From: Jeotgalibacillus malaysiensis
Lineage (GTDB): Bacteria; Bacillota; Bacilli; Bacillales; Jeotgalibacillaceae
Reading direction: 5' to 3'
Length of the DNA: 64,000 nucleotides
Assembly (NCBI GenBank): GCA_000818095.1
Contig: CP009416.1
Location: 3,084,501 to 3,148,500, forward strand
Both the position numbers and the translations under genes were made by a program. The notes beneath the pieces were generated by a model. That model worked only from the letters and a program-made list of their open reading frames with translations. It did not search any database and had not been told where the DNA came from. Shown piece after piece: positions 18,208-59,252 of the stretch; the first letter of the stretch is position 1; every line of letters begins with the position of its first letter.

Positions 18208-18241
18208 AAACACCCGCTCCTCAAAAGAGAAGCGGGTGTTT
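18208..18241. terminator. Bidirectional terminator before the cold-shock gene
   Basis: Perfect stem AAACACCCGCT / AGCGGGTGTTT with a 12-nt loop, 13 bp from the end of the cold-shock gene. Confidence 0.88.
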
Positions 18242-18254
18242 TGAAAGTGTAAAA

Positions 18255-18455
18255 TTATAATTTTACAACGTTAGCAGCTTGGTCGCCACGGTTGCCTTGA
18301 GTGATTTCAAAGCTAACTTTTTGACCTTCTTCAAGAGTTTTGAATCCTTCGCCAGTGATAGCTGAGAAGTGTACGAATACATCTTCGCCGCCGTCTACTT
18401 CGATGAAGCCAAATCCTTTTTCTGCGTTAAACCATTTTACTGTACCTTCGTTCAT
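18255..18455 (-). CDS. Cold-shock protein (CspA/CspB family)
   Basis: 66 aa from the ATG at 18455, preceded by TGGAGGAAT; five extra codons upstream in frame include the ribosome site. A single cold-shock OB-fold: [20 protein letters not shown] carries RNP1 (KGFGFIE), DVFVHFSAI carries RNP2, and the tail is [11 protein letters not shown]. It binds single-stranded RNA and DNA and acts as an RNA chaperone. The leader is about 147 nt from the predicted start site and holds a long hairpin, as expected of cold-inducible csp genes. Confidence 0.95.
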
Positions 18456-18510
18456 GGGTAATTCCTCCACTGTGTTCTAAGTTTTACTTAATAGCTGAGT
18501 AAAAACAAAG

Positions 18511-18579
18511 AATTCACATGCTATCACAAGCTTTTTACATGATCGGAAAATGTAAAAAGTTCCTGATAACATGTGAATT
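18511..18579 (-). promoter_or_regulatory. 69-nt hairpin in the cold-shock gene leader
   Basis: Outer arms AATTCACATG (18511-18520) and CATGTGAATT (18570-18579), then CTATCA against TGATAA, then inner arms CTTTTTACAT (18531-18540) and ATGTAAAAAG (18550-18559). Nearly continuous pairing. It lies between promoter and ribosome site; a temperature-responsive or transcript-stabilising role is inferred. Confidence 0.75.
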
Positions 18580-18608
18580 AGATGGTGTTACGTATTAAGC
18601 ATGGACTA

Positions 18609-18637
18609 ATCATAGCATGGGGTTTTGGAAATAGCAA
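18609..18637 (-). promoter_or_regulatory. Promoter of the cold-shock gene
   Basis: Minus strand TTGCTA (18632-18637) and TATGAT (18609-18614) with 17-bp spacing, placing transcription start near 18602. Confidence 0.6.
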
Positions 18638-18741
18638 ACCTTTTGCCAAAATACTTTCCGACATGATTCGTCATTATCCGTTGTGCAAACGGTACGATCG
18701 TGAGCAGCATAGGGTTGTGGTCATGGAAATAAAATACTTGA

Positions 18742-18908
18742 AGTGATTCGGGTTTTTGATAATGTGACCTGAGATTTCGGGAAGGTGACCGGAAAATGAG
18801 GAGAGATGACCTTAAATTCTCGATTCAAATAAGGAGGTGACCGAAAATCTGGTGAAGGTGATCTTACATTTCACGGAGGTGACCCGAAATTGATTGGATG
18901 TGACCCCA
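18742..18908 (+). repeat. 21-bp-period array, core GGTGACCGAAA
   Basis: Eight units start at 18742, 18763, 18784, 18805, 18836, 18857, 18878 and 18899; every step is 21 bp except one of 31. Cores include AGTGATTCG, TGTGACCTG, GGTGACCGG, GATGACCTT and GGTGACCGA. The remaining ~10 bp of each unit vary freely. Same core family as the arrays at 36447 and 59032. Confidence 0.85.
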
Positions 18909-18944
18909 ATCCTTCCCCTGCCTCTTCCCTCTCTCACACCCCAA

Positions 18945-28209: not shown

Positions 28210-29031
28210 CTAACAAAATGATGTGCGCATCGCAAGCTCTGTCATGACTAACATTGCCTGATATGCTTCTAAGATGTTTTTAGCTCTGAATGTCACGATA
28301 CAGGTGTCCGGCTCTATCTCTGTGCCGGGCATCAGATTCGCCCACTCCGCCATGCCGTAATTGGTGAATTCAATTTTAAAAACAGGTGCATCAGATGCGA
28401 TTAATGGCTTCGCCTGAATGTTCTTTAAAGCTTCAGCTGTAGTTTCTTTTAACAGTGCACGTGCTTTGACTGGCGTCAGACTTTTTACTGCCGACCTTGA
28501 GATCGTTTCTTTAACCGCTGCCGTCTTCACACCACTGATGAGCGCTTTTGCTTCAGCGGCTGCACAATCATCGCCGCCAACCATGACAACCGGAACGCCG
28601 AAGTGTCCTGCGACCATTGCATTAAAACCAAGCTCACCTACTACCTCATCATCCACCCACATATTGCGGACGCCCCACGTCATCGCGTGTGACATGACCC
28701 CTTTTTGACCTGCGCGGGCGTGATAGCCGAGGAAGATTGCCGCGTCATACGTCGAGTCAAGCCCCTGCACCATTGAAAATGGTTTCACGTCCCCTGTGAT
28801 CAGCATCGCATCCGGGTGAAGCTCCTCAATGACAATGTTGTTCATTTTAGAGTGTGAGTCGTTGACAAGCACCTCTGTGGCGCCTGCTTCAAACGCCGCC
28901 TCAATGACTGCATTCGCCTCGTGCGTCATGATCAGCCGGCCGCGCTCATAATTTTTTTCATTTGAACTGACATATGTATAATCCGGAAGACCTGAGATCC
29001 CCTCCATGTCCACTGACAAGTACACCTTCAT
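28210..29031 (-). CDS. dppA: D-aminopeptidase
   Basis: 273 aa from the ATG at 29031 (AAGGGG 9 nt upstream). Zinc-dependent, removes N-terminal D-amino acids such as D-Ala from D-peptides. The known B. subtilis metal ligands fall at the same numbers here: Asp8 and Glu10 (SVDMEG), His60 (NDSHS), His104 (GYHARAG) and Glu133 (VVGELGF), with His115 also present. First gene of the dpp-ykf operon; a CodY-like site covers its promoter. The product helps recycle D-Ala-containing wall peptides. Confidence 0.96.
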   Translation of the reverse strand: MKVYLSVDMEGISGLPDYTYVSSNEKNYERGRLIMTHEANAVIEAAFEAGATEVLVNDSHSKMNNIVIEELHPDAMLITGDVKPFSMVQGLDSTYDAAIFLGYHARAGQKGVMSHAMTWGVRNMWVDDEVVGELGFNAMVAGHFGVPVVMVGGDDCAAAEAKALISGVKTAAVKETISRSAVKSLTPVKARALLKETTAEALKNIQAKPLIASDAPVFKIEFTNYGMAEWANLMPGTEIEPDTCIVTFRAKNILEAYQAMLVMTELAMRTSFC

Positions 29032-29060
29032 CGACAAATTCCCCTTTTTTCTTCAATCAC

Positions 29061-29101
29061 AATTTTCAAACAACTATACCAAAGAGAGGGAATTCGATCA
29101 A
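29061..29101 (-). promoter_or_regulatory. dpp promoter with CodY-like box
   Basis: Minus strand TTGATC (29096-29101) and TATAGT (29073-29078) with 17-bp spacing. At 29061-29075 the plus strand reads AATTTTCAAACAACT, 12 of 15 matches to the CodY consensus AATTTTCWGAAAATT, overlapping the -10 and start point. B. subtilis dpp is CodY-repressed, so this is a credible site. Confidence 0.7.
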
Positions 29102-29318
29102 ATGGAGGAAGCCCTGTCCAAGCCTGTCAGATCAGGGTTCTGGTGGTAATCCAATTGTCCCTGAACGCTGATAAATCAACTATTTCGGTTAGGTAAATAG
29201 TTCGAGGGAGGGAGTTGAAAAATTTTTTTAAAATTAGGTTTATTCATAGAAATTTTTGTTCATATAGGCGGGTAATTATGCTTGGGGGTGGATAATTATG
29301 TGGGTCTAGAACGTCGGG

Positions 29319-29444
29319 GTTCGCAGAAAAAGATGCAATGTTCGTAGAATAAACTAACTGGTTCGTAGAATAGAAACTATTGTTCATAGGAAGACATAAG
29401 ACCTTCTTAGAAAAAAGTGGCCGCTTCGTAGAATAGTGACATTT
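29319..29444 (+). repeat. 21-bp-period array, core GTTCGTAGAATA
   Basis: Six units start exactly every 21 bp at 29319, 29340, 29361, 29382, 29403 and 29424. Cores are GTTCGCAGAAAA, GTTCGTAGAATA (twice), GTTCATAGGAAG, CTTCTTAGAAAA and CTTCGTAGAATA. Looser TTCATAG units lie upstream from 29242. The same core occurs inverted at 47826-47934. Confidence 0.88.
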
Positions 29445-29463
29445 GACCCACCTTTCAAACACA

Positions 29464-29491
29464 TAAAAAACCCGGAGCAGCACCCCGGATT
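29464..29491 (-). terminator. Terminator of the TIM-barrel isomerase gene
   Basis: Minus strand AATCCGG / CCGGGTT stem followed by a six-T run, 13 bp after the stop. Confidence 0.75.
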
Positions 29492-29503
29492 TCGAATCAA
29501 AAC

Positions 29504-30253
29504 TCATTCATACCAGCCCTTAACAACCTTCGCGCTCGGCTTCACTTCTTCAAGCGGATCACCGTCAAAATGCTCCTGCTCGACAACAAGCCAGTCTGTC
29601 TTCACGCGGTCAGCAAAGCCTTTCAAATCAAGGCTTCCTTTACCGATTGCAGCCGTTCTTTTGTGACCGTTTTCTTCTATCATATCTTTTAAATGGATAG
29701 AGAAAATATTCCCTTTTAAGCGGTCTAGCAGATTATATGTATGAATCCCTGCATATTCTGTCCAGTAGACGTCAATTTCGAGGTGAATGAGATCTTTATT
29801 AATCGTTTCTTCAAGGACGTCCCATCCTGTCATACTCGTTTCAACCTTTTGAAACTCGAAATCATGGTGATGGTAACCGAGTTTAATCCCGGCTTTTCCA
29901 AGCGAAACTGCTGCTTTATTCATCAGTTTTGCCAGTTTTTTATAGCCTTCGAGCGTGCGCCATTCTTCATCTACGAAAGGAATGATCAGTTTTGTATTGC
30001 CGATTTCTTTGCTGAAGCTGATCCAGTGATCAAGCTCTGATTGATTTTCAAGTGCAGTGACCGGCATATGTATTCCTGCTGCGCCAAGCTGGTTGTCTGA
30101 TAAAATCTGTTTCCATTCTGCGCCTGTTTTGCCGTAATCGCCTGCAAGCTGAACGCCGTCGTATCCTGCTTCGCTGAGTGCGCGGATTGTTTGTTCAGGA
30201 TTTTCTTCCATTGCTTCTTTTACTGACCAGAGCTGTATTGCTACTTTTACCAT
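29504..30253 (-). CDS. Sugar phosphate isomerase/epimerase family (xylose isomerase-like TIM barrel)
   Basis: 249 aa AP-endonuclease-2/IolE-like barrel. Metal-site segments: LGYHHHDFEF, LIHLEIDVYWTEYAG, IFSIHLKDM and the C-terminal WLVVEQEHFDGD. Members isomerise or epimerise sugars and inositol derivatives; the substrate cannot be told from sequence. Single gene with its own terminator and GGAGGGT before the ATG. The downstream gap holds a 21-bp array rather than further genes. Confidence 0.85.
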   Translation of the reverse strand: MVKVAIQLWSVKEAMEENPEQTIRALSEAGYDGVQLAGDYGKTGAEWKQILSDNQLGAAGIHMPVTALENQSELDHWISFSKEIGNTKLIIPFVDEEWRTLEGYKKLAKLMNKAAVSLGKAGIKLGYHHHDFEFQKVETSMTGWDVLEETINKDLIHLEIDVYWTEYAGIHTYNLLDRLKGNIFSIHLKDMIEENGHKRTAAIGKGSLDLKGFADRVKTDWLVVEQEHFDGDPLEEVKPSAKVVKGWYE

Positions 30254-37708: not shown

Positions 37709-39194
37709 TCCCTCCTGTCGCTGCTGTCATCAGACGTGCTTCTGTCGCTTCCTGATTCAGCATTTCATCAGTGATTTCCCCGTCCGCCATGACCAGAATC
37801 CGGTCTGCGATCTGGAGTAGTTCATCAAATTCACTCGTAAAATATAAAATGCCTTTCCCCTGATCAGCTAAATGTGTGATCAGACGGAAGACATCGTTTT
37901 TTGCACCGACGTCAATCCCTTTTGTCGGTTCATCAAACATAAACACGCTGCTGTCATGATTCAGCCACTTGCCAATCGATACCTTTTGCTGATTACCACC
38001 GCTGAGGTGCTTCATCAAAGCTTTTGGAGAAGATGTAATGATCCCGAGCTCCTGTATCTGTTGAAGTGCCGACTGGTGTTCTTTTTTCCGGTTGATAAAG
38101 CCTGCTGTTGTAAAATGCTTAAGCGCCGGAAGTGACAGGTTTTCCTGCACATTCGACTCGATCAGCACACCGCTTTTACGGCGTTCTTCAGGAATAAATG
38201 ACAGTCCTGCCTGAACAGCGTGACGCGGGCTTTTCACCTTTACTTCCTTGCCATTTATCAGCCACTTGCCTTTTGCATTCGTCACACCGAAAATCGCATT
38301 CGCTGTTTCTGATTTTCCTGCACCAACGAGCCCTGCGATCCCGACAATTTCACCCGCTCTAACTGAAAGACTGATTTGTTTACCTGTCTCAGGGACGGCT
38401 ATATGATCAATTTCAAAAACGGTTTCTTCACTGAAATCGCGGTGATGATAATCTGCTTTATGAAGCTGCTTGCCAAGCATCGTTTTTACTACTTCTTCAG
38501 TTGATACACTGTCTGTCTCATATACTGCTACGGCTTTTCCATCTCTCATAATGGTCATGCGCTCTGCAATCTGCTTGATTTCCTGCATGCGGTGGGAGAT
38601 GTAAATCATCCCGATTCCCTGCGCCTTCAGTTCTTCGATCACGCTAAAAAGCTGTTTTGTTTCCTGATCGCTTAACGGTGCAGTCGGCTCATCAAAGATA
38701 ATAATTTTTGCATCAGATGCCACTGCCCGCGCTAAAAGGATCATCTGTTTTTGAGAAAGCGTGCAGTCTTCTACCAGGCGATTCAGCTGAATCTGTGTCT
38801 GAACTTTCGCCAGCCGCTCTTCTGCAATCAGCTTTCGTTTTTTCCAGCTGATCGGTCTGCTGTTTTTCCCACCAACGGTCAGATCGAGCGTGACGTTTTC
38901 AGCGACTGACAGATTTGGGATCAGACCTGTATCCACTTCCTGCACAACGATCGCGATTCCTTTTTCCTGGGCGTCTGATGGGGAAGTGAAATGTACTTCT
39001 TCCCCCTCAATTAAAATCGTGCCCCCATCTTTTTCATAGTCGCCTGATAAAATTTTAACGAGCGTACTTTTACCGGCTCCATTTACACCAAGCAAGGCAT
39101 GAACTTCACCAGGTTCAACTGAGAAGTCCACCTGCTTTAGCACATTGACTGGACCAAATGACTTTGTAAGTTGTTGAACCTGAAGATAACTCAT
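37653..39194 (-). CDS. Sugar ABC transporter ATP-binding protein (RbsA type, two ABC domains)
   Basis: 513 aa from the ATG at 39194, which overlaps the upstream stop as ATGA. Two ABC halves: the first with GVNGAGKSTLVKIL (Walker A) and IIIFDEPTAPLSD; the second with GLVGAGKSETANAI, LSGGNQQKVSIGKWL and VFMFDEPTKGIDVGAK. The second Walker A is degenerate, as in RbsA/MglA proteins. Energises the RbsC-like permease. Confidence 0.92.
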   Translation of the reverse strand: MSYLQVQQLTKSFGPVNVLKQVDFSVEPGEVHALLGVNGAGKSTLVKILSGDYEKDGGTILIEGEEVHFTSPSDAQEKGIAIVVQEVDTGLIPNLSVAENVTLDLTVGGKNSRPISWKKRKLIAEERLAKVQTQIQLNRLVEDCTLSQKQMILLARAVASDAKIIIFDEPTAPLSDQETKQLFSVIEELKAQGIGMIYISHRMQEIKQIAERMTIMRDGKAVAVYETDSVSTEEVVKTMLGKQLHKADYHHRDFSEETVFEIDHIAVPETGKQISLSVRAGEIVGIAGLVGAGKSETANAIFGVTNAKGKWLINGKEVKVKSPRHAVQAGLSFIPEERRKSGVLIESNVQENLSLPALKHFTTAGFINRKKEHQSALQQIQELGIITSSPKALMKHLSGGNQQKVSIGKWLNHDSSVFMFDEPTKGIDVGAKNDVFRLITHLADQGKGILYFTSEFDELLQIADRILVMADGEITDEMLNQEATEARLMTAATGGNAVETAEYQQRLSAAGRS

Positions 39195-40345
39195 TGTCCG
39201 TTTTTCGCCTCCAGTGCGTCCATCCAAGGTGAACGCGCAGCATTCGGTGATCCCCATCCTTCAATATGCTGGCCAACATCAGCCATTGTGACAGGCTCAT
39301 CCGGAAGGTCGCTTACGTTTACAACTGATGGATCAAGTGCGTAGATTGAAGGCGTTTCTTCACCGGCAATCTTTTGATACAGGAATCTCACCTGTACGCC
39401 TGCTACTTCAGCAGGATCTGTTGCCGCCGTTGTTACCCACGGGCTGTTCTCTTCCTGCATAATCTGAAGATCCTCATCACTCAGGTCAATGCCGTATACT
39501 TTGATTTCATCGCGTCCTGCCTGCTGAATCGCACGCGTCACACCTTTTGCAAACTCATCATATGGTGCAAATACTGCATCAATTGAGCCTTCTTCAGGAT
39601 ATTTCTTCAGTACAGCCTCCATCTGATTTTGTGAATCAAGTGCTGTATTATTACTCACGCTTCCAAAACGCGCGACTTCTGATACATTTGGATAGTGCTC
39701 AAGGAATGCTTCATAGATAACGTTACGTCTTTCAAGCGGCGTAAAGCCTCCTGCCCATACATACACGATGTTACCTTCCCCGTCGATGTCCTGTGCCATC
39801 TGCTTCAGCGTGCCCCATGCAAGGCTGTAATCATCCTGGCTGATTGCTGTTACACCGTCTACAGTAATGTCGTTATCAAACGTTACAACAGGAATGCCTT
39901 TTTCAAGCGCTTCTTCTACACCCTGATTCAATGCTTCTGCACGGCCGTGGTCGATCAGAATTCCATCCACGCCCTGGTTGATCGCTGTCTGAAGGTGATT
40001 CGCCATCTGTGACAGGTCGTTGTTAGCATTGTAGATCTGTACTTCTCCGCCAAACTTTTCAACCTGTGCTTCAAGTCCGCTTACGTATTGGGAAGCGAAT
40101 GTGCCAGTTGAGAACTCCATAATGGCAGCGATTTTAAGCGGCTTGTCTACTGCTGCCGGGATTTCTGCATCGCCTGCCTGTGATGTTTGTTCGGTTGAAG
40201 CTTCTTCTGTTTCTTCTGCAGCTTCAGTCGATTCTTCTGCTACTGCTTCTTCCGGTGCTTCCTCTTGCGAAGCCGGCTGCTGGTCTGTACATGCTGCAAG
40301 GATGAGTGTTAGTGAGAGTAATAGTAAAATAAGTCCTTTTTTCAT
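39191..40345 (-). CDS. Sugar-binding lipoprotein (RbsB type)
   Basis: 384 aa from the ATG at 40345 (AAAGGAG 8 nt upstream). Lipobox LAAC with Cys19, an Ala/Glu-rich linker (about 25-60), then a periplasmic-binding-protein type 1 fold (KIAAIMEFSTGTFASQYVSGL, DGILIDHGRAEALNQGV, GIPVVTFDND). It binds a monosaccharide-like ligand outside the cell. First gene of the transporter, 230 bp after mtnA with palindromic element copy 4 between. 5-Methylthioribose is the leading candidate ligand from context; ribose or autoinducer-like sugars are alternatives. Confidence 0.88.
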   Translation of the reverse strand: MKKGLILLLLSLTLILAACTDQQPASQEEAPEEAVAEESTEAAEETEEASTEQTSQAGDAEIPAAVDKPLKIAAIMEFSTGTFASQYVSGLEAQVEKFGGEVQIYNANNDLSQMANHLQTAINQGVDGILIDHGRAEALNQGVEEALEKGIPVVTFDNDITVDGVTAISQDDYSLAWGTLKQMAQDIDGEGNIVYVWAGGFTPLERRNVIYEAFLEHYPNVSEVARFGSVSNNTALDSQNQMEAVLKKYPEEGSIDAVFAPYDEFAKGVTRAIQQAGRDEIKVYGIDLSDEDLQIMQEENSPWVTTAATDPAEVAGVQVRFLYQKIAGEETPSIYALDPSVVNVSDLPDEPVTMADVGQHIEGWGSPNAARSPWMDALEAKNGQ

Positions 40346-40411
40346 TTTCTGCACTCCTTTAAAAGGTTAATTTAGTAAAGTTTTAGTCTATAAGTGTTCA
40401 ATATAAGTTGA

Positions 40412-43718: not shown

Positions 43719-43887
43719 AAAAAGCCCCTTTCTAAGATAGAAAGAGGCAGAATTAGACTGATTCGACCTCTTATCTCTCAGACCATTACGTCTGTTGGAT
43801 GTAGCACCGTGTCCCTGCTGAATGTATACAGCGGGCCGGTTGCCGGGCTTCATAGGGCCAATTCCCTCAGCCAACTCTCGATAAGAG
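43719..43887 (-). promoter_or_regulatory. SAM-I riboswitch (S box) with terminator, mtnK operon
   Basis: Minus strand: P1 arms CTCTTAT (43887-43881) and ATAAGAG (43774-43768) enclose the conserved GAGGGA, ATGAAGCCCGGCAACC and GGTGCTA blocks. A terminator stem GCCTCTTTCTA / TAGAAAGGGGC follows at 43724-43749, with a T-run at 43719-43723. High SAM should stop transcription of the oxidoreductase-mtnK-mtnA operon. Confidence 0.95.
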
Positions 43888-44497: not shown

Positions 44498-44660
44498 CTC
44501 TTATAAAGAGCAGGTGGAGGGACGAGCCCGATGAAACCCGGCAACCTGTTTCAGCGATTTACCGCTGATTCAAGGTGCTAATTCTCACAGCGACAGCTGA
44601 AGGATAAGAGGAAGAACGTTCATGTAGATGTCCGCTTCCTCTTTGGGAGCGGATTTTTTA
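44498..44660 (+). promoter_or_regulatory. SAM-I riboswitch (S box) with terminator, mtnW operon
   Basis: P1 arms CTCTTAT (44498-44504) and ATAAGAG (44604-44610) enclose GGAGGGACGAGCCCGATGAA, ACCCGGCAACC and GGTGCTAATTC. Terminator TCCGCTTCC (44631-44639) / GGGAGCGGA (44645-44653) plus T-run. The antiterminator pairs AAGAGGAAG with CTTCCTCTT, sharing the P1 3' strand, the standard S-box switch. Confidence 0.97.
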
Positions 44661-47202: not shown

Positions 47203-47745
47203 ATGGCGACAATTACAATCAGAGATACTCAGGAAACGATTAAAGGCGAAGAACAGGTTCAGGCATTTCTGGCTGATCAGGGCGTATTATATGAAAAGTG
47301 GGATACTGCAAAGCTTCCTGAAGCACTTCAGGGTGTGACAGGACTTTCTGATGAAGATAAAGAAACTGTTCTTTCAGTATTTGACGGCGAGATCCGTTCA
47401 CTTGCTGAGCGCCGCGGTTATCATAACTGGGACGTGATTTCACTGAATGAACAGACACCGGGTCTTGAGGATCTGCTGAAAAAATTCGAGCAGGTACATA
47501 CGCATACGGAAGATGAAGTGCGTGCCATCACTGCAGGTTCAGGTATTTTCATTATTAAAAGTGAAGAAAAAGGTTACTTTGATGTAAACCTTGCACCTGG
47601 TGACGTGATTTCTGTACCGGTTGATACACCTCACTTCTTTACACTGACTGATGAGCGCGAAGTCGTGGCCGTGCGCCTCTTTATTGAAAAAGAAGGCTGG
47701 GTTGCTCACCCTTATCACGATCCTGCATTTGAAGAAGCAAAATAA
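47203..47745 (+). CDS. mtnD: Acireductone dioxygenase
   Basis: 180 aa cupin. Metal ligands His99, His101, Glu105 (VHTHTEDEVRAI) and His144 (VDTPHFF). With Fe it gives formate and the keto acid that is transaminated to methionine; with Ni it goes off-pathway to CO. GGGAGGAAG before the ATG. Last gene of the operon; a methionine-forming aminotransferase (mtnE) is not in this window. Confidence 0.96.
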   Translation: MATITIRDTQETIKGEEQVQAFLADQGVLYEKWDTAKLPEALQGVTGLSDEDKETVLSVFDGEIRSLAERRGYHNWDVISLNEQTPGLEDLLKKFEQVHTHTEDEVRAITAGSGIFIIKSEEKGYFDVNLAPGDVISVPVDTPHFFTLTDEREVVAVRLFIEKEGWVAHPYHDPAFEEAK

Positions 47746-47753
47746 GATGATGA

Positions 47754-47781
47754 ACCGCATCCTTTAGGGGTGCGGTTTTTG
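47754..47781 (+). terminator. Terminator of the mtnWXBD operon
   Basis: AACCGCATCC / GGGTGCGGTT stem (one wobble) with a 5-nt loop and T-run, 8 bp after the mtnD stop. Confidence 0.88.
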
Positions 47782-47825
47782 TTTTGAAAGTATGATGTGG
47801 AGTAGGTCTAATTACACTATTCTAA

Positions 47826-47934
47826 TGACCACGACGTTTTTTCTCCGAACAGCATCTTCTATTCTACGAACCACACATGTTTTTCTTTGAACATCACCTC
47901 TCATTCTTCGAACACCTACTGCTTTTCTAAGAAC
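47826..47934 (-). repeat. 21-bp-period array, core GTTCGTAGAATA (minus strand)
   Basis: On the minus strand six units begin exactly every 21 bp at 47934, 47913, 47892, 47871, 47850 and 47829. Cores are GTTCTTAGAAAA, GTTCGAAGAATG, GTTCAAAGAAAA, GTTCGTAGAATA, GTTCGGAGAAAA and GTCATTAGAATA. Same core family as 29319-29444. Confidence 0.9.
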
Positions 47935-57227: not shown

Positions 57228-58967
57228 ATGAATGCAATTGCGTTAGCAGCGATCGGGCTGTTTGTATTTGTGCTGGGCTACAGATTTTATTCAAAATTTG
57301 TTGCTGAGAAAATTTACAGACTTGATCCGAACTACGTTACACCTGCTCACCGCTACAAAGATGGCGTCGATTTCGTACCGACGAATAAGTTCGTGCTCTG
57401 GGGACACCACTTTACGTCTGTAGCCGGTGCTGCACCGATTTTGGGACCTGCCATTGCGGTCTACTGGGGCTGGCTTCCCGCTGTGCTCTGGGTTGTGCTT
57501 GGAACAGTATTTGCTGCCGGTGTTCATGACTTTGGTACACTCGTTGTGTCTGTCAGAAATAAGGGACAGTCAATGGGAACACTTGCGAATAAATTAGTTG
57601 GTCAGCGTGCAAAGATTTTGTTCTTATTTATTATTTTAATTCTTGTACTGATGGTTAACGCCGTATTTGCATGGGTCATTGCGAACCTGTTTATCACATT
57701 CCCATCAAGCGTACTGCCTGTATTTATACAGATTCCACTTGCAGTGTGGATTGGGCATGCGGTGTATAAGCGTAACGCAAAAATGCTAGTGCCTTCACTT
57801 GTGGCACTCGCTGTGATGTACCTTGTAGCTGTTCTTGCAGCTGAGTATCAGATTCTGCAGATCGACCTTGTCCGCTATATGGGCGGTGAGGAAGGTGCCG
57901 GAATCTTTGGACTTGGTGCCATTTCAAGTGCATTCTTTATCTGGATTGTCATCCTGATGATTTATGTGTATATCGCGTCTACACTTCCAGTCTGGAAGCT
58001 TCTGCAGCCGCGTGACTTTATTAATTCACACCAGCTTGTAGTTGGTCTTGGTATCCTGTATCTTGGTCTGCTATTTACAAACCCTGAGATTACAGCACCA
58101 ATTACGAACCCTGATGCAAATGATGTATCCTGGTTCCCGCTTCTATTTATCACAATCGCCTGTGGGGCCATTTCAGGTTTCCACGGACTTGTATCATCAG
58201 GAACATCTTCAAAACAGCTGAATAAAGAAACGGATGCTCGTTTTGTCGGGTATGCAGGTGCTGTAGGTGAAGGTGTGCTGGCACTGATTTCCATCATTGC
58301 TGTTATCACGTTCTTCCCGAATGCTGATGCATTTAAAGAGTCTTATAATAGCTTTACAGCAGCAAGCGGCGGCGGTCTTGGCAACTTTGTTCAGGGTGCC
58401 GGTCAGCTTGCAGGCGGTCTTGGCATCCCTGCTGAAGTCGCGGCGACAATCGTATCGATCATCGTCGTCAGCTTTGCAGCAACAACGCTTGATACATCTG
58501 TTCGTCTGATGCGTTACATCATCTCTGAACTTGGGACTGAATATAAAGTACCTGCACTTGAGAAAACACACGTTGCTACAACAATCGCAGTTGTATCAAG
58601 TGCTGCGCTTGTATTAATTCCTGAAGGTCCAAACGGATTCGGTTCAGGTGGTTACCTGCTGTGGCCGCTGTTCGGTACATCCAATCAGCTTTTAGCCGGT
58701 ATTAACCTGTTACTGATCTCCATCTGGCTGAAGCGACTTGGCAGAAACTATCTGATCACACTGATTCCAATGGTCTTCCTGATGTTCATGACGCTTTACG
58801 CAATGATCAGTCAGGTATTTACACAATGGGCTTGGTGGAACGAGCAATCAAGCACACTTCTATTTGTATTCGGTGCGCTGATCCTCGGATTCGCACTATG
58901 GATCTGTCTGACAGCGATCTCTACGCTAATGTCTAAAAACCAGACGCCAATTGACCCGAACGAATAA
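57228..58967 (+). CDS. cstA: Carbon starvation protein CstA, peptide/pyruvate transporter family
   Basis: 579 aa with about 14-16 membrane helices. CstA marks: PTNKFVLWGHHFTSVAGAAPILGPAIAVYWGW, VHDFGTLVVSVRNKGQSMG, ISGFHGLVSSGTSSKQL and YLLWPLFGTSNQLLAGINLLL. Family members take up peptides (E. coli CstA) or pyruvate. The length is that of the shorter Firmicute form rather than the ~700-residue E. coli one. GGGGGAAA before the ATG. The cre site links it to carbon catabolite control. Confidence 0.93.
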   Translation: MNAIALAAIGLFVFVLGYRFYSKFVAEKIYRLDPNYVTPAHRYKDGVDFVPTNKFVLWGHHFTSVAGAAPILGPAIAVYWGWLPAVLWVVLGTVFAAGVHDFGTLVVSVRNKGQSMGTLANKLVGQRAKILFLFIILILVLMVNAVFAWVIANLFITFPSSVLPVFIQIPLAVWIGHAVYKRNAKMLVPSLVALAVMYLVAVLAAEYQILQIDLVRYMGGEEGAGIFGLGAISSAFFIWIVILMIYVYIASTLPVWKLLQPRDFINSHQLVVGLGILYLGLLFTNPEITAPITNPDANDVSWFPLLFITIACGAISGFHGLVSSGTSSKQLNKETDARFVGYAGAVGEGVLALISIIAVITFFPNADAFKESYNSFTAASGGGLGNFVQGAGQLAGGLGIPAEVAATIVSIIVVSFAATTLDTSVRLMRYIISELGTEYKVPALEKTHVATTIAVVSSAALVLIPEGPNGFGSGGYLLWPLFGTSNQLLAGINLLLISIWLKRLGRNYLITLIPMVFLMFMTLYAMISQVFTQWAWWNEQSSTLLFVFGALILGFALWICLTAISTLMSKNQTPIDPNE

Positions 58968-59031: not shown

Positions 59032-59213
59032 GGTGACTGGAAAACTTGTGAAGGTGATCGAAAAAATAATGATGGTGACCGGAAAATCACTAAAGGTGAC
59101 CGAAAAAACTGCTTTTACCGGCTGCATAATGAAACGTGATTGAAAAATCTGTGAAGGTGACCGAAAAACATCTGAAGGTGACCCAAAAACAACCGAACGT
59201 GATCGAAAAACCT
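59032..59213 (+). repeat. 21-bp-period array, core GGTGACCGAAAA
   Basis: Eight units start at 59032, 59053, 59074, 59095, 59135, 59156, 59177 and 59198; all steps are 21 bp except one of 40. Cores are GGTGACTGGAAAA, GGTGATCGAAAAA, GGTGACCGGAAAA, GGTGACCGAAAAA, CGTGATTGAAAAA, GGTGACCGAAAAA, GGTGACCCAAAAA and CGTGATCGAAAAA. The other eight positions vary. The clearest array in the window. Confidence 0.93.
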
Positions 59214-59252
59214 TACCACCCACTCAACTCAACCTAAAGGAGGCGCTCACCC

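Follow-up and report, generated by a model that had tools for sequence, protein, structure and literature searches.

The window analysed here, a 64,000-nucleotide stretch of the Jeotgalibacillus malaysiensis genome (contig CP009416.1, positions 3,084,501 to 3,148,500), raised the question of what two arrays of short direct repeats, sharing one core and one period and lying on opposite strands, might be. An earlier note on this DNA had described six cores at 29319-29444 and six more on the opposite strand, all in exact 21-bp register. This description held, with the sister array extending to 47809, and the following features were defined (the two class A arrays and their tail ends by sequence reading):

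18742..18919, plus strand: class B array (KGTGACCYGAAAAT units), 4+4 units, centre step 31 bp (unit 1 is degenerate and was assigned by eye)
29319..29444, plus strand: class A array, six 21-bp units (core GTTCNTAGAAAA followed by 9 variable bases)
29445..29450, plus strand: fixed-tail end, GACCCA (consensus GACCTA)
29467..29493, minus strand: terminator-like hairpin and T-run behind gene 29504-30253 (minus strand), facing the tail end of the array
47752..47778, plus strand: terminator-like hairpin behind gene 47203-47745 (plus strand), facing the tail end of the array
47803..47808, minus strand: fixed-tail end, GACCTA
47809..47934, minus strand: class A array, six 21-bp units
59032..59218, plus strand: class B array, 4+4 units with a 40-bp centre step, behind gene 57228-58967 (plus strand)
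C1:2354066 of the whole J. malaysiensis genome (G000): class A array

Architecture of the arrays

Every step of the array at 29319-29444 was 21 bp; the cores of units 4-6 were imperfect (GTTCATAGGAAG, CTTCTTAGAAAA and CTTCGTAGAATA) and the array closed with the tail GTGACATTT-GACCCA. The sister array ran from 47934 down to 47809, its six cores also exactly 21 bp apart, the last of them GTCATTAGAATA, and closed with GTGTAATTA-GACCTA. When the window was scanned for periods of 12 to 40 (ORF 39191-40354 excluded), the top three spots, 47837, 29329 and 59107, all had period 21; the spot at 59107 was a different word, of a second class, and was absent from the list in the earlier note. The argument that a common core and period spoke against chance proved sound: adjacent cores 21 bp apart (up to one mismatch) were matched 138 times in the whole genome, vs. 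0 for the reversed pattern. Single cores within the window (up to two mismatches; 10 found vs. 3.7 expected) were weaker evidence. Two loci, as first counted, were too few, class A alone being present at 34 places at least, a lower bound among the matches listed.

Class A arrays (GTTCNTAGAAAA-N9), read side by side at these places, consisted of six 21-bp units and the tail GTGTAAWWWGACCTA; 168 of the 170 steps between the six units of 34 arrays were exactly 21 bp and two were 20 bp. An automated count gave six units in 27 of the 34 and seven to nine in 7, the extra matches lying in the flanks and scoring 4-5 of 8, and two of these that scored 5 could be decayed units. GTTC and AGAA were nearly invariant and positions 5-6 variable. 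The last unit ran on, with few exceptions, as GTGTAATTT-GACCTA (tail consensus GTGTAAWWW-GACCTA from 32 of the 34 arrays, 2 being left out). The variable halves, previously described as sharing no similarity, were mostly unlike each other, except for this fixed tail and for base preferences in units 1, 4 and 5 (same 32 of 34 arrays). The arrays were preceded by about 40 bp rich in G/T and followed by about 30 bp rich in A/C. The 34 arrays read, with six units each and mutually unlike variable halves, did not fit a simple tandem repeat or VNTR, and a 21-bp unit throughout, at dozens of loci, did not fit a CRISPR (long repeat with spacers and cas genes). Copy number was not wholly fixed: one array of the A-prime word had 4 units in G007 and 6 in G011, two of the 12 Jeotgalibacillus genomes searched.

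Class B arrays (KGTGACCYGAAAAT; also written KGTGACCYGAAAATT..GGA) had 4+4 units around a longer centre step. Two pattern searches gave 47 matches vs. 0 in the control and 96 vs. 0, all listed, and together 30 places, of which 20 were read (three by eye) and ten matched by pattern alone, some by one or two pairs. The centre step was 30 bp in 17 of the 20 read, 31 bp in 2 and 40 bp in 1. At C1:2940691-2940806 in G000, two units among the class B matches were apparently in exact tandem repeat (42 bp). A dispersed gap repeat (..GGAAGGCGC..CAGCTCCGACAG..) adjoined some arrays or stood alone, for example in the L335-L344 gaps and in the flanks of class B arrays of G000 (C1:88160, 726679).

Words, conservation and turnover in the genus

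The J. malaysiensis genome comprised 4,119,509 bases in two contigs (3,516,439 and 603,070), the second replicon having the size given for pJeoMA of this species in an excerpt of its published description (PMC5027565). In 504,534 bases of this genome, 82 spots of period 21 were found, vs. 23-30 at each other period from 14 to 35, a shared floor of about 23 spots being masked sequence that scored at every period. Other words in G000 were A-prime (GTTCGRCG...), C (GTTCMKGARATTA), K (GATTCCTTCAA) and M (GATTTGTAGC), and sister species carried further words as well; the words D-M, apart from A, A-prime, B, C and H, were each recognised by eye, at no more than a few places.

Among the 12 genomes of the halophilic genus Jeotgalibacillus, class A was present in 7 (just 2 matches each in G004 and G009), class B in 5 (mostly with the spelling GTGACCSGTAA in G007 and G011) and class C in 7, chiefly G007, G008 and G011 (control: 1, in G011); the G004 matches and most G009 matches of the class C search were a related word, GTTCGTGAGGTTA. 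Class H matched 202 times in G005 and no more than 6 times in each other genome, and words A, B and C were all without match in G005. Species favour their own words at the common 21-bp period (C in G007 and G008, H in G005).

In 299 kb from 20 other genera of the order (some stretches very short) no array was seen, and three period-21 spots lay in open frames. The class A pattern retrieved 78 database stretches; the titles of 15 named Jeotgalibacillus (J. salarius, J. alimentarius, J. terrae), and among the stretches scored the tail was found in Jeotgalibacillus only. Candidates in rumen Bacteroidetes (L223, L226) were rejected, having varying spacers without tail inside open frames of 130 and 394 codons, as was class A beyond the genus in general: one of 138 other-genus genomes matched, with a best six-unit score of 28/54 inside an open frame. 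No description of the arrays was found in the open-access literature, and the family is real, genus-wide and apparently undescribed. The interpretation in the earlier note was partly supported, the two arrays belonging to a genus-wide family with many words.

Arrays of different words lay side by side in one gap at C1:33798-34059 (A-prime and A) and 749589-749750 (A and C) in G000, and at 5386-6000 of L131 (E, A and C; we take word E to resemble DnaA boxes, TGTGNATAA). The class K arrays at C1:19658 and 111330 in G000 were both preceded by the same CAAGAGCGTCAAAGGCCAAAAC... sequence, the former lying some 2 kb beyond masked sequence that may be an rRNA operon. In G005, entire arrays were tandemly duplicated each 225-270 bp (C35:301096-301598, C37:69-524).

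Seventeen orthologous class A pairs with both flanks homologous (of 21 such pairs, two within-genome pairs and two others being dropped; the pairs share loci) agreed at 95.5% of core positions, 89% of tail positions, 61% of positions in the variable halves and 32-39% of those in flanks of 40 bp, the arrays having been picked with an ungapped six-unit frame, which would miss length changes. For non-orthologous class A arrays the figures were 92% (core) and 36% (variable half). The identities of the orthologous pairs indicate that the arrays are old and inherited with the core kept, and the differences between core, variable half and flanks that the core is under selection. Inverted-repeat ends were considered and rejected (own-flank pairing no better than with swapped flanks, p 0.48-0.69); with no such pairing excess and a core better kept than the variable half in orthologues, the arrays did not resemble MITEs or transposon remnants.

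The window array at 47809-47934 had an orthologous array in G008 (L119), alike in position and orientation. Behind gene 47203-47745, presumably related to mtnD from its sequence resemblance, or its orthologues, class A was found in G000 and G008 and A-prime in G007 and G011, in the orientation of class A in the former two; no array was seen behind the orthologues in G004 and G009. Between G007 and G011, arrays dropped entire units and eroded, and with such gain, loss and erosion of arrays among close species, no array is essential by itself. Two G000 arrays (749589 and 754155), 4.6 kb apart and inverted, were 90% identical from the array start to GACCTA, with unrelated flanks and homology stopping at the array ends. 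The flanks of array 749589 matched a G008 array site, the variable half of that G008 array being only 38% identical. Copying between arrays occurs as well, array 749589 having nearly the sequence of its neighbour 754155.

Placement among genes and along the chromosome

In gaps of at least 200 bp, arrays were found in 20/30 gaps between convergent genes, 29/89 between tandem genes and 2/28 between divergent ones (Fisher 2e-6, convergent vs. divergent; genes from a hexamer-based caller), and only the contrast among gap types counts, because the DNA stretches were fetched for their arrays. The caller overlooked a NERD gene at 505.3-506.3 kb, so that array 505125 is tandem, not divergent; array 506493 sits in a divergent gap. 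In 14 of the 17 tandem gaps with class A, the array ran antiparallel to the adjacent genes (p 0.013), and class B showed no orientation bias (7 antiparallel, 5 parallel). The tail of antiparallel class A arrays pointed at the end of the upstream gene, with a terminator-like hairpin in between for both class A arrays of the window. Arrays are located behind terminators and mostly avoid divergent gaps. The link between orientation and replication direction raised in the earlier note did not appear (co-directional: class A 13/34, p 0.23; class B 12/30, p 0.36), and class A orientation weakly follows transcription rather than the fork.

On the larger G000 contig, dnaA (named from sequence) started at C1:523, and skew and gene strand flipped between 1.56 and 1.74 Mb. 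Fully listed searches placed none of the 30 class B arrays, none of 23 class A tails (up to one mismatch) and none of 6 class C arrays in a zone from 1.25 to 2.26 Mb. The zone limits were set after seeing the data, which the largest-gap test allows for (class B alone, 0.005; tails alone, 0.006; pooled, 0/59 sites and 0/20,000 simulations). Each of the 23 tails closed an array: 20 of these arrays belong to the 34 described above, and three further ones have mixed words (L196, L200, L201); the 22 tails with two mismatches were dropped (control 47 vs. 45 tails in all), 4 of them being within the zone, and at the two of these that were examined no array was present. Thirteen 20-kb stretches inside the zone (260 kb) held no array, each of their 8 threshold spots falling within an open frame interpreted as a gene (in one case a short one, of 85 codons). 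At the density elsewhere, about 8 arrays were expected in these 260 kb, which offered 45 tandem or convergent gaps of at least 200 bp; a comparison sample from elsewhere, chosen so as to avoid known arrays, had 2 arrays in 200 kb.

In the sister genomes, odhA, a terminus-zone gene in G000 (1.74 Mb), served for comparison. All 59 class C matches of G008 (20 arrays) lay off the odhA-bearing contig C2, which carried, among the matches listed, a class A array (964.6 kb) at a distance of 0.62 Mb from that gene. Of the exact class H matches listed in G005, 2 of 61 were on the odhA contig, 0.6 Mb from odhA.

The Noc-binding consensus, ATTTCCCGGGAAAT, was matched with up to one mismatch at 20 sites in G000, none between 1.151 and 2.408 Mb. 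These 20 sites were used for comparison and 20 two-mismatch sites were dropped, 7 of the latter falling in the zone, as chance would be expected to produce (the control had 7 in the whole genome). Excerpts of two reports describe Noc sites as largely absent from the terminus region (PMC4331003, PMC5540599). The Noc gene was present in 12/12 genomes, and the idea that the arrays replace Noc was therefore rejected. The words A, B, C and H differed from the Noc consensus, and 1 of the 20 Noc matches (up to one mismatch), a perfect copy of the consensus at C1:88023-88036 of G000, fell within a class B array. The terminus gap shared with Noc sites is a correlation, and the gene content or history of the region could also cause it. 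This gap argues for a chromosome-scale role and against pure insulators or decoys.

Possible function and alternatives

An action at the level of RNA or peptide was not supported. Covariation in 55 of 62 arrays gave 1 of the 40 strongest column pairs at least 80% pairable and no stacked triplet in the top 200, and Rfam had nothing near threshold at 28900-29600 and no match at any window array; with neither compensatory changes nor Rfam matches, a structured RNA was disfavoured. Two SAM riboswitches and a cspA thermoregulator scored above the Rfam thresholds in the window (43768-43887, minus strand; 44498-44610, plus strand; 18208-18643, minus strand). Frame and shuffle tests also took in 55 of the 62 arrays. 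The best frame, on the reverse strand and starting at the class A tail (TTT TCT ANG AAC ...), was open in 31/55 (other frames in 1-16/55), vs. 19 in core-kept and 23 in column-wise shuffles (0/300 reach 31). Despite this excess, a protein-coding repeat was rejected, with a stop in the best frame of 24/55 arrays, and coding was unsupported because every frame was closed in many arrays. Nor was there a sign of the decayed gene family considered in the earlier note, five of the six frames being closed in most of the 55. That the units act after transcription, either as sites for proteins or pairing or by encoding a short repeat peptide on the reverse strand, is suggested by the position of arrays at gene ends and by the partly open frame; with no stem-like covariation, no own-flank pairing excess, no Rfam match at the window arrays, these stops and the mixed orientation of class B against it, we give it hardly any credence.

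A protein complex on double-stranded DNA is suggested by the helical phasing, the conserved half of each unit, the nearly constant unit count and the fixed end. From the architecture, phasing, conservation, dialects and placement observed, and from the terminus gap of J. malaysiensis, we infer protein binding, a protein family and a role: with a probability of about 0.4, the arrays are platforms, in helical phase, on which members of a diversifying DNA-binding protein family act at chromosome scale, the binder being putative and the role deduced from the distribution. Each array would be a double-stranded DNA docking platform for proteins, the 12-13-bp core of each unit being the binding site of one protomer (or dimer). 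The 21-bp step, two helix turns, would bring six or eight protomers onto one DNA face, in mutual contact; the 8-9 variable bases would point away and be free to drift, and the fixed tail and unit number would set one closed complex of defined size. Different words may be the sites of diverged relatives in one protein family, which would give species dialects. The likeliest role would be to mark or organise the origin-proximal part of the chromosome, for its folding or segregation or for division timing, and not to control genes locally; a chromosome-scale role seems most likely because arrays occupy gaps behind terminators, mostly shun promoters and leave the terminus zone empty, as for Noc. 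Against the platforms count the multiple words per genome, which a simple organiser does not need, the excess of open reverse frames, which a pure DNA site does not explain, and the 30-bp centre step, which is no exact multiple of 10.5. A Pfam scan of 10 proteins, nearly all near arrays (a minority of array neighbours), gave no replication initiator and no candidate binder. A tentative extension, which we hold to be possible and rather doubtful, is a lineage-specific chromosome address system, in which diversifying binders would each read their own 12-13-bp word in fixed-size complexes on the phased arrays, marking the chromosome near the origin, with the terminus unmarked and species dialects.

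Arrays might instead be transcription insulators, a bound protein acting as a roadblock to polymerase leaking past the adjacent terminator. The preference for convergent over divergent gaps, the antiparallel class A arrays in 14 of 17 tandem gaps and the hairpins facing both window class A arrays fit this reading, which we consider unlikely: class B has no orientation bias, the 45 suitable gaps in the 260 kb read in the terminus zone are without array, and six or 4+4 units are left unaccounted for. Less likely still is selfish or self-spreading DNA, arrays being copied from gap to gap by an enzyme or recombination and selection removing only harmful insertions. The inverted pair 749589/754155 with its unrelated flanks, arrays of different classes side by side, the gain, loss and erosion in G007 and G011 and the tandem copies of whole arrays in G005 would be so explained, but dead copies would decay evenly, whereas the orthologous core is kept far better than the variable half; conversion of a pre-existing array accounts for the 749589 copy as well, and junk DNA usually collects near the terminus.

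Plasmid iterons are typically 17-22-bp direct repeats in helical phase, and iterons and centromere arrays (parC, tubC), sometimes in two blocks, are alike in this to the arrays described here, which differ in their dozens of chromosomal copies and in conserving only 12-13 of 21 bp. Chromosomal decoys, copies of initiator sites that titrate incoming plasmids or phages and whose words an arms race keeps changing, would account for numerous fast-changing words and seem very improbable: in viral contigs, words B, C and H were all without exact three-unit match and word A had 15 matches, none scoring as an array, and blastn found no plasmid match for one window array and no phage match for the other (phages and plasmids of the genus may be missing there). 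The DNA uptake sequences (DUS) of Neisseriaceae lie close to terminators and are single words without register, fixed number or tail. Species words enriched by uptake and recombination would resemble the arrays in their many copies and species dialects, as described in an excerpt of a report on DUS dialects (PMC3630211); neither a strict 21-bp register nor a set number or tail is required of uptake words, and we judge this reading, too, very improbable. REP/BIME and MITE-type repeats are likewise dispersed intergenic elements near gene ends; the arrays differ in that no inverted-repeat ends were found and in having a conserved core with drifting spacers at orthologous places.

Alike in distribution to the proposed protein platforms are the Noc-binding sites of Bacillus and Staphylococcus and the SlmA sites of E. 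coli, described in excerpts of PMC4331003 and PMC5540599 as many origin-proximal sites, largely lacking around the terminus. Noc-binding sites are palindromes of one word, whereas the arrays are fixed-size direct repeats with many words, and Noc is present alongside; the array family perhaps resembles Noc sites in distribution without being a member, word and build being different. Known chromosome-wide site systems use, to our knowledge, one word per system. If the platform reading is true, phased fixed-size arrays with several words per genome would make a change of recognition code watchable in recent evolution, as where the word behind one and the same gene is A in G000 and G008 and A-prime in G007 and G011, and the arrays may reveal a new organiser of the bacterial chromosome.
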